This document shows, one piece after another, positions 17,116 through 25,607 of a DNA stretch of 64,000 nt (positions are counted from its first letter, which is position 1; each line of letters opens with the position of its first letter). Origin of the DNA: Procambarus clarkii (Eukaryota > Arthropoda > Malacostraca > Decapoda > Cambaridae); assembly GCF_040958095.1 (NCBI RefSeq), contig NC_091227.1:18915210-18979209 (forward strand), read 5' to 3'. The translations under genes and the position numbers were made by a program. Below the pieces are notes generated by a model. The model did no database searches. It was not told where the DNA came from and saw nothing but the letters and a program-made list of their open reading frames with translations.

Positions 17116-20100
17116 ATGGGGGATAAACACAAGCAATCTTCGAAGAAGATGCTAAACATGCCCCCAATCGGCATCAACTTCACCAAGGTGAGTTTTAGCA
17201 CGTGTGTGTTGTCATGACAGGTTCCTAGAGTGCTGTCAGGCTGATCATGACAGGTCCCCCGAGTACTGTCAGGCCAACCATGACAGGTCCCCCGAATGCT
17301 GTCAGGCTGACCATGACAGGTTCCTAGAGTGCTGTCAGACCAACCACGACAGGTAATCACAATGTCGTCAAGCATAGGGACTCATCAGCTGACCGAGTCA
17401 GCTGATGAGTGTAAACAAATCAACTGTTTGCGGGTAAACAAAGTGCTGTATTGTTTTATGTTTAAAACATAAACGAAATGTTGCCAATGACTTTGTGGTC
17501 TTGCGCCAATGCCCACCCTTGGCTTCACAGGAATTGTATATCATGCTAATGTTAAAACCGATAGTTTCTTCTGTATATATATTTGTGAATAGTAAAAAAT
17601 ATAAACAATTTCTGCAAAGAAATCTATGGCTGTTAGACTAGGATGTTGGCCATACGTTTTGGGCTGGCTTCACCTGACTTTTCAACATGAAACATGGATG
17701 GTATGTTGCCCAATTTTAATTAATTATTAAAAACCAGATATAAATATAAATACAATATATATATATATAAATATATAAACCAATATGATGATATTTCCTC
17801 TTCCAGAATCATTGCGAACTCACTAAGCAGATAAAGAACGCCATTAGGTTTAGAAATTATTACGTGGATAACCCTGACCCAGACAAAGATTTTAAGGTGG
17901 AGAAACAGCTGTGTCACTTGGAGATCCCTATTGCAGGAGAGGTGTCAGACATCGTTGTTAGCCGACTGCGCAAGTTCTGCTCCAAACACTACTATACAAT
18001 GGACTATTTTTTTATAACTACTTCGGTAAGGTTTGTAAGCTAACTCTTTCTTTAAAATTATGTACAGTGTAATATATATATATATATATATATATATATA
18101 TATATATATATATATATATATATATATATATATATATATATATATATATATATATATATATATATATATGTCGTACCTAGTAGCCAGAACGCACTTCTCA
18201 GCCTACTATGCAAGGCCCGATTTGCCTAATAAGCCAAGTTTTCATGAATTAATTGTTTTTCGACTACCTAACCTACCTAACCTAACCTAACCTAACTTTT
18301 TCGGCTACCTAACCAAACCTAACCTATAAAGATAGGTTAGGTTAGGTTAGGTAGGGTTGGTTAGGTTCGGTCATATATCTACGTTAATTTTAACTCCAAT
18401 AAAAAAAAATTGACCTAATACATAATGAAATGGGTAGCTTTATCATTTCATGAGAAAAAAATTAGAAAAAATATATTAATTCAGGAAAACTTGGCTTATT
18501 AGGCAAATCGGGCCTTGAATAGTAGGCCAAAAAGTGAGTTCTGGCTACTAGGTACGACATATATATATATATATATATATATATATATATATATATATAT
18601 ATGTCGTACCTAATAGCCAGAACGCACTTCTCAGCCTACTATTCAAGGCCCGATTTGCCTAATAAGCCAAGTTTTCATGAATTAATGTTTTTTCGTCTAC
18701 CTAACCTACCTAACCTAACCTAACCTAGCTTTTTTTGGCTACCTAACCTAACCTTACTTATAAATATAGGTTAGGTTAGGTTAGGTAGGGTTGGTTAGGT
18801 TCGGTCATATATCTACGTTAATTTTAACTCCAATAAAAAAAAATTGACGTCATACATAGAGAAAAGGGTTGCTTTATCATTTCATAAGAAAAAAATTATA
18901 GTAAATATATTAATTCAGGAAAACTTGGCTTATTAGGCAAATCGGGCCTTGAATAGTAGGCTGAGAAGTGAGTTCTGGCTACTAGGTACGACATATATAT
19001 ATATATATATATATATTTTAATCACCTCTTTATCTTAAGATTCTCGACAATGGACACTAATTTTGGAAATCTGAAAATCATTTACAGTGTTTTTCCTGTT
19101 ATGAAATTATTTATTACATTTATTCCCTGGAAAAAAATTAATTTTATAAAATAAAATTTCCTTATGGATTGAATCCCCCTCTCAGATTTCAGCAACAGAA
19201 AAAGCTAACAAAAACCCTCTCCCACTTGTCTCTCTCAGATACCGGTGCCAAAAAACTTAGACGCTGATCTGAAGCTTATTCGCGATCTTTACGAGCGCCT
19301 TGATAAGAAACCGGTGGATGTTCTTTATCTAGAAAATCCTGTGGGACTTGAAGGTGCGGGGGGATGATACCCTACTTTTTAAATTCAGTTTTTCCTGACA
19401 ATCAGAACACACACTCATCAGTTATTGTGTTTATATACAGTATAAGTATACATACATTTGTAAACAAAATGTACTCCTTATTTCCTTTGCTGAAATGACA
19501 TTCCTAAACAAACTTTATGCAATTTTCCGCAGGTTCGGATCCCAAAGGAATCTTTCAGAGGGCTAGAGAGAACCCATACACACGGATGGAAGTCGAGAGG
19601 GACATATTTATGCGTGAAGAATATTACGGGTCTTTGCTGATCACTCCTGACATACTCCAGAACTTGTGGGCAGTCTGGCAGTGGTTGACAGACTACGTGA
19701 GTTACTCTGGTTGGCTGTGCTGTCAGTCGCTGCTACTTCCACCTCCAGAACCAGACTTTGAGTGGCACTAACGGGAGACATGCGTAGTTTGACCAATAAT
19801 AAGGGAGCCAAGCCATTGACCCTTATCAGAGCGCGGCACTAATAGGGCTTCGATGGTTTAAAGTGCGCGCGCATGTAATGAATATGTAATCATATATATA
19901 TTCATGCATGTATGTTTGCGAGTAATGTACACCAATGTTTTCAAGTCATGTATAGCCATGCTCTATTATAGATATGTATGAATAGTTTAGCCTTTATGTA
20001 TGTTTGGATGTCTTTATATGGGTATTTAGCATGTATGTTATACCACTGTTGTATACGTATAGTCTTCCTGCCAGGTCATAAGAGGAAAGCTGGCCCTTAA

Positions 20101-25607: not shown

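Follow-up and report, generated by a model that had tools for sequence, protein, structure and literature searches.

Known systems with the aldo-keto reductase fold

To our knowledge, clear non-enzymes are few among the aldo-keto reductases (AKRs). The closest precedent for the gene described here is GCLM, the AKR-related, non-enzymatic regulatory subunit of glutamate-cysteine ligase. A second system bears on how its residues are to be read: AKR1D1, the steroid 5-beta-reductase, is active with Glu at the position of His110, and keeps Tyr, Lys and NADPH binding; a change from His110 to Glu alone would therefore not mean inactivity. An AKR that lacks the Tyr, the Lys and the NADP phosphate motif is not expected to carry out AKR-type hydride transfer. 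Among the papers listed by literature searches on AKR pseudoenzymes, none is, by its title and the opening part of its abstract, about an inactive AKR of arthropods.

The gene to be compared with these systems lies in a stretch of 64,000 nucleotides of Procambarus clarkii DNA, called the window throughout. Its anchor is a canonical AKR gene of the same genome, C11b (contig C11, 39.09 Mb; start codon and last two exons placed by eye), with nine exons and intron phases 0,0,1,0,1,2,0,2. The window gene has these phases at all eight introns, in the same order, and its exon 6 equals that of C11b in length; C11b and its relatives on contigs C8 and C25 are the closest canonical genes. From 5ket, the deposited aldo-keto reductase 1 of a termite, the window protein differs in that its tetrad and phosphate motif are replaced. 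It has Glu at His110, as AKR1D1 does; unlike AKR1D1, it is without the Tyr, the Lys and the phosphate motif. GCLM itself was rejected as the identity of the window protein: a human GCLM sequence finds AKRs in the PDB at 4.5e-11 at best and gives a BLASTP E-value of 2.1 with the window protein, and separate GCLM-like exons lie elsewhere in this genome, at C5:27.53 Mb (1.5e-8).

Gene model

Nine exons at 17116-25607 on the plus strand, with GT-AG at all eight introns, splice to 1125 nt in a single open frame: 374 residues and a stop. The sequence-only reading had proposed nine in-frame exons, good splice sites and 374 residues, and the spliced model comes to exactly that length. An acceptor for exon 6 at 21964 was tried and breaks the frame; the acceptor at 21935 restores it. 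Exons 2 and 4 are longer than those of C11b, by 17 and 23 aa.

Exon 1: 17116..17187, plus strand; start ATG; MPPIGI, strand-1 region (canonical MPxxGxG); followed by a phase 0 intron, like C11b exon 1
Exon 2: 17807..18025, plus strand; 73 aa against 56 in C11b; Asp43 retained (YVD); FITTS at the end, FITTK in C11b
Exon 3: 19239..19353, plus strand; VDVLYLENP, where Glu takes the place of His110; VDLYLVHKP in C11b
Exon 4: 19533..19696, plus strand; 164 nt against 95 nt in C11b; end reads NLWAVWQWLTDY
Exon 5: 20075..20150, plus strand; GLKNF; Ser159 replaced by Lys, Asn160 retained
Exon 6: 21935..22073, plus strand; QVELNPY...VVCAIHPFGNP; Gln183 retained, Tyr209 replaced by Ile; 139 nt, the C11b length
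Exon 7: 23138..23297, plus strand; FVLDNDRMIGIGWMLQ against VVPKSSNPERIRQNIE in C11b; phosphate/adenine motif gone
Exon 8: 23514..23632, plus strand; C-terminal region
Exon 9: 25547..25607, plus strand; C-terminal tail and stop
AATAAA/ATTAAA motifs, first two of four: 25753..25766, plus strand; motif only

All four of these motifs, which are matches to the motif only, fall in the 593 nt 3' of the stop (25753, 25761, 25870 and 26068).

Family membership and the anchored alignment

A search against PF00248, which the sequence-only reading had proposed as a check, gives 33.9 bits over residues 115-270, above the cut-off of 24; the best PDB sequence match is the aldo-keto reductase 5ket (1.5e-9, residues 172-264). 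With a profile built on AKR1B1, DkgA and 80 bacterial AKRs, the significant match is confined to residues 180-292 (single-sequence E 1.3e-17), so that statements about the tetrad in the N-terminal part needed other evidence. The introns provide it: because their phases are identical to those of C11b, the exons are homologous one by one and the N-terminal alignment is fixed, which similarity alone could not have done. By its PF00248 match above cut-off and by a gene structure in common with a canonical AKR, the gene belongs to the AKR superfamily by descent. No relative was confirmed in IMG/VR; among plasmid sequences, three records match, over 35-37% of the query.

Aligned exon against exon to C11b, exons 2, 5, 6 and 7 each score above all shuffles (0/300); of 300 shuffles, 7 do as well as exon 3, 8 as well as exon 4 and 15 as well as exon 8, and exons 1 and 9, taken alone, are indistinguishable from shuffles (59/300 and 64/300). 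Over the 320 residues of C11b, the exon-anchored alignment has 84 identities (about 26%).

The showing of exons 1 and 9, and a general profile that covers only residues 180-292, would suit a mixed gene model, in which exons of different origin have been joined and the real transcript has other N-terminal exons carrying an intact tetrad. We consider this very improbable, as intron phases and order follow C11b throughout and no such exons were seen at the locus among the best-scored candidates. When the window's own 4.03 Gb assembly is searched with the protein, each of the nine exons matches once at the locus, and the rest of the 33 candidates scored are weak: strong matches of the nine exons fall only here among those candidates, no close second copy of the gene was found, and the best match outside (40% over 47 aa, E 0.0028) belongs to a set of AKR exons and repeats. 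Exon 2, searched by itself, matches only itself convincingly among the best 150 of 656 candidates. Searches of the genome with AKR1B1 and C11b bring up no further exon at the locus among the best-scored candidates, and among the first 70 matches listed for AKR1B1 against the window, exon 6 is the only one that stands out (E 1.5e-5; next 0.69). Alternative exons restoring the tetrad, which the sequence-only reading had named as the finding that would tell against it, were thus looked for, and none was seen at the locus among the best-scored candidates.

Catalytic and cofactor residues

Site numbers and roles (D43, Y48, K77, H110, S159, N160, Q183, Y209, K262 and the rest) are those of AKR1B1. 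Where an enzymatic AKR has the tetrad Asp-Tyr-Lys-His, the window protein reads D, D, S, E on the exon-anchored alignment, with D43 kept and Y48, K77 and H110 replaced by Asp, Ser and Glu; the first reading of the sequence was right about the loss of Tyr, Lys and His. The loss of Tyr48 is independent of gap placement, because the sequence has no Tyr between the retained Asp (residue 45) and residue 86. The K77 position is the last codon of exon 2, so placed in the FITTK of C11b and in the FITTS of the window gene. The phosphate-binding motif had also been reported as replaced, and so it is: at the NADP(H) phosphate/adenine contacts K262, S263, R268 and N272, the protein has D, N, G and M. All eight of these tetrad and phosphate-motif residues are kept by C11b; only D43 is kept by the window gene. 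Replacement of the SNF nicotinamide contact, a further claim, holds in part: S159 is Lys, but N160 and Q183 are retained, and with Y209 changed to Ile, two of the four nicotinamide contacts survive.

These survivors leave room for a protein that is still catalytic, through an active site that has moved or changed (Asp43 paired with the new Glu, for instance) or through a non-redox activity: Asp43, Asn160 and Gln183 are in place, and Glu for His110 is the residue that AKR1D1 uses there. A review also cautions that in some pseudoenzymes the residues required for catalysis may have moved (PMC10211241). With no Tyr in the 40 residues past Asp43, Ser in place of Lys77 on the last codon of exon 2 and no NADP phosphate motif, we regard continued catalysis as decidedly improbable.

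A specifically eroded active site, as distinct from conservation lost evenly, was considered and is not demonstrated. The window protein retains 4 of 17 functional conserved columns (13-16 of 17 in four canonical paralogues) and 21 of 62 other conserved columns (42-48 of 57-62 in the same paralogues); the two kinds are lost about equally often (Fisher p 0.56), which means that the whole protein has strongly diverged, beyond the active site alone.

Descent and canonical copies

In a tree of exons 5-7, a branch with support 88/85 places the window protein together with C11b, C8 and 5ket. This is not a firm branch, and the alternative of placing the protein with C22 and C92 survives the test (p-AU 0.111). 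A stronger argument for descent than this tree is the intron identity with C11b. The end branch of the window protein carries 5.86 changes per column, where the median is 0.58.

Canonical AKR1-like genes were modelled with our own small splice aligner on C82 (two), C22, C35, C92 and C11, some with incomplete ends. In 11 of 11 canonical exon-2 copies examined, Asp, Tyr and Lys are retained; these comprise nine from a Pfam search (three on C25, one on C8, two on C11, one on C35, two on C82) and the C22 and C92 models. His is retained in 11 of 11 canonical exon-3 copies (ten copies and the C92 model). The text search for copies required Tyr and His, and each of the loci counted was confirmed to be in the list that it gave; copies decayed beyond the reach of the first Pfam search would escape both counts, matches on C5 and C90 are incompletely covered by them, and in the C25 cluster the copies of exons 2 and 3 are counted singly rather than paired into genes. 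Copies of AKR exons that are related to C11b and nearly identical to one another are spread, several at a time, over hundreds of kilobases, at C8:26.82-26.99 Mb and C25:25.69-26.10 Mb.

Maintained or decaying

The sequence-only reading held that the gene encodes a maintained protein rather than a decaying pseudogene. This seems most likely, from the open frame, the GT-AG introns, the codon score and the hydrophobic core. Under a codon model for which C11b and two of the window's open frames served as training set, the coding frame scores highest in 9 of 9 exons; 1,000 random intron stretches never reach the score of the gene (maximum 0.011 against 0.382), the background having been built from the same introns. 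GC3 is 0.605, and the introns are 0.30-0.43 GC. Neutral simulations from C11b, with substitutions only, leave the frame free of stops in 0 of 300 runs at 35% identity (mean 8.9 stops) and in 1 of 300 at 60%. Core positions are hydrophobic in 52 of 66 cases (mean 35.6 and maximum 49 over 500 shuffles): 20 of 30 in the N-terminal half, a weak signal by itself, as 21 of 500 shuffles reach this count, and 32 of 36 in the C-terminal half, reached by none. Core hydrophobicity gives indirect support to a predicted (alpha/beta)8 barrel fold.

A rival perspective supposes a gene constrained until recently, then silenced and now drifting. The very long end branch would follow, and relaxed constraint could also give a branch of such length; loss is scattered across the protein, beyond the active site, and no close paralogue turned up among the candidates scored. 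Set against this are eight GT-AG introns around an open frame, a GC3 well apart from the GC of the introns, and the stops that neutral runs accumulate, which limit the time available for drift and still allow a very recent loss. Silencing thus appears unlikely. A maintained pseudoenzyme is the most likely reading, because the residues are lost, the coding frame scores best in every exon, GC3 is 0.605, and neutral runs are never stop-free at 35% identity.

Exon 2 and a Penelope-like element

Forty residues of exon 2, VEKQ...YFFI (17897-18016), align ungapped with a segment of an abundant element family, with 16 of 40 identical and 25 positive. By our reading of its sequence the family is probably Penelope-like, and the segment would sit between a reverse transcriptase and a GIY-YIG domain. 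A first look at the genome yields 40,561 candidates for this family, and the best 150 of them were scored. The segment-like matches examined (L136-L138, L140-L142 and L145) are one element family; two other weak matches (L143, L144) are unlike that element, and in one compared copy of a second Penelope-like family the segment is absent. At the nucleotide level, 49 of 120 positions agree, and 8 of 40 third positions.

Such an origin would mean that the part of exon 2 replacing the catalytic-Tyr segment came from a Penelope-like retroelement, the active site having been overwritten by an exonised transposon. It is not supported, because the best genome-wide E-value for the segment is 1.63 (best 150 of 656 candidates) and chance is the default; we hold it to be highly doubtful. 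If true, exonised transposon sequence would have provided the old barrel with a new surface for binding.

Other features of the window

Several further open frames were recorded in the window. Two long single-exon frames in opposite orientation are paralogous by eye and carry an SOS1/NGEF-like PH domain; for the RhoGEF (DH) domain, the second frame stays below cut-off and the first has no match reported. Two shorter frames recall retroelements, and two long ones are made of short repeats, probably repeats rather than genes, with SYPWICVR units on the minus strand and SVHPRVQCSSK units on the plus strand.

6298-7815, plus strand: long single-exon open frame, PH domain
11804-13543, minus strand: long single-exon open frame, PH domain
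26903-27187, minus strand: open frame with a reverse-transcriptase-like stretch by eye, FGFRSQQST...DLRKAFDTVNH
36500-36901, plus strand: open frame that looks, by eye, like what is left of a retroelement's GIY-YIG endonuclease
57025-57960 and 60963-61701: long open frames of short repeats

A proposed non-enzymatic role for the barrel

The window gene is most likely an AKR pseudoenzyme: a former enzyme maintained as a non-reductase. It would descend from a canonical AKR of arthropods, one belonging to the C11/C8 subfamily, which is the subfamily nearest PDB 5ket; the intron-exon skeleton and much of the hydrophobic core were retained, while Tyr-Lys-His and the cofactor motif were lost. The protein is predicted to be made and to fold as an (alpha/beta)8 barrel, and NADPH-dependent carbonyl reduction would be gone. 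The remodelled mouth of the barrel may bind a partner protein or ligand, as do AKR-fold non-enzymes such as the modifier subunit of glutamate-cysteine ligase; a binding role is suggested because the barrel pattern is kept, exons 2 and 4 are longer and the rate is fast. By that analogy the protein might be a regulatory or scaffold subunit, a possibility to which we attach about half the confidence given to the pseudoenzyme itself.

Pseudoenzymes as such are common, and the surprise is limited accordingly. Here a canonical relative and an apparently inactive gene stand in one genome on the same exon skeleton, so that each lost residue can be traced. If the gene is expressed, it would provide a direct test of what an AKR barrel does after catalysis has been lost.
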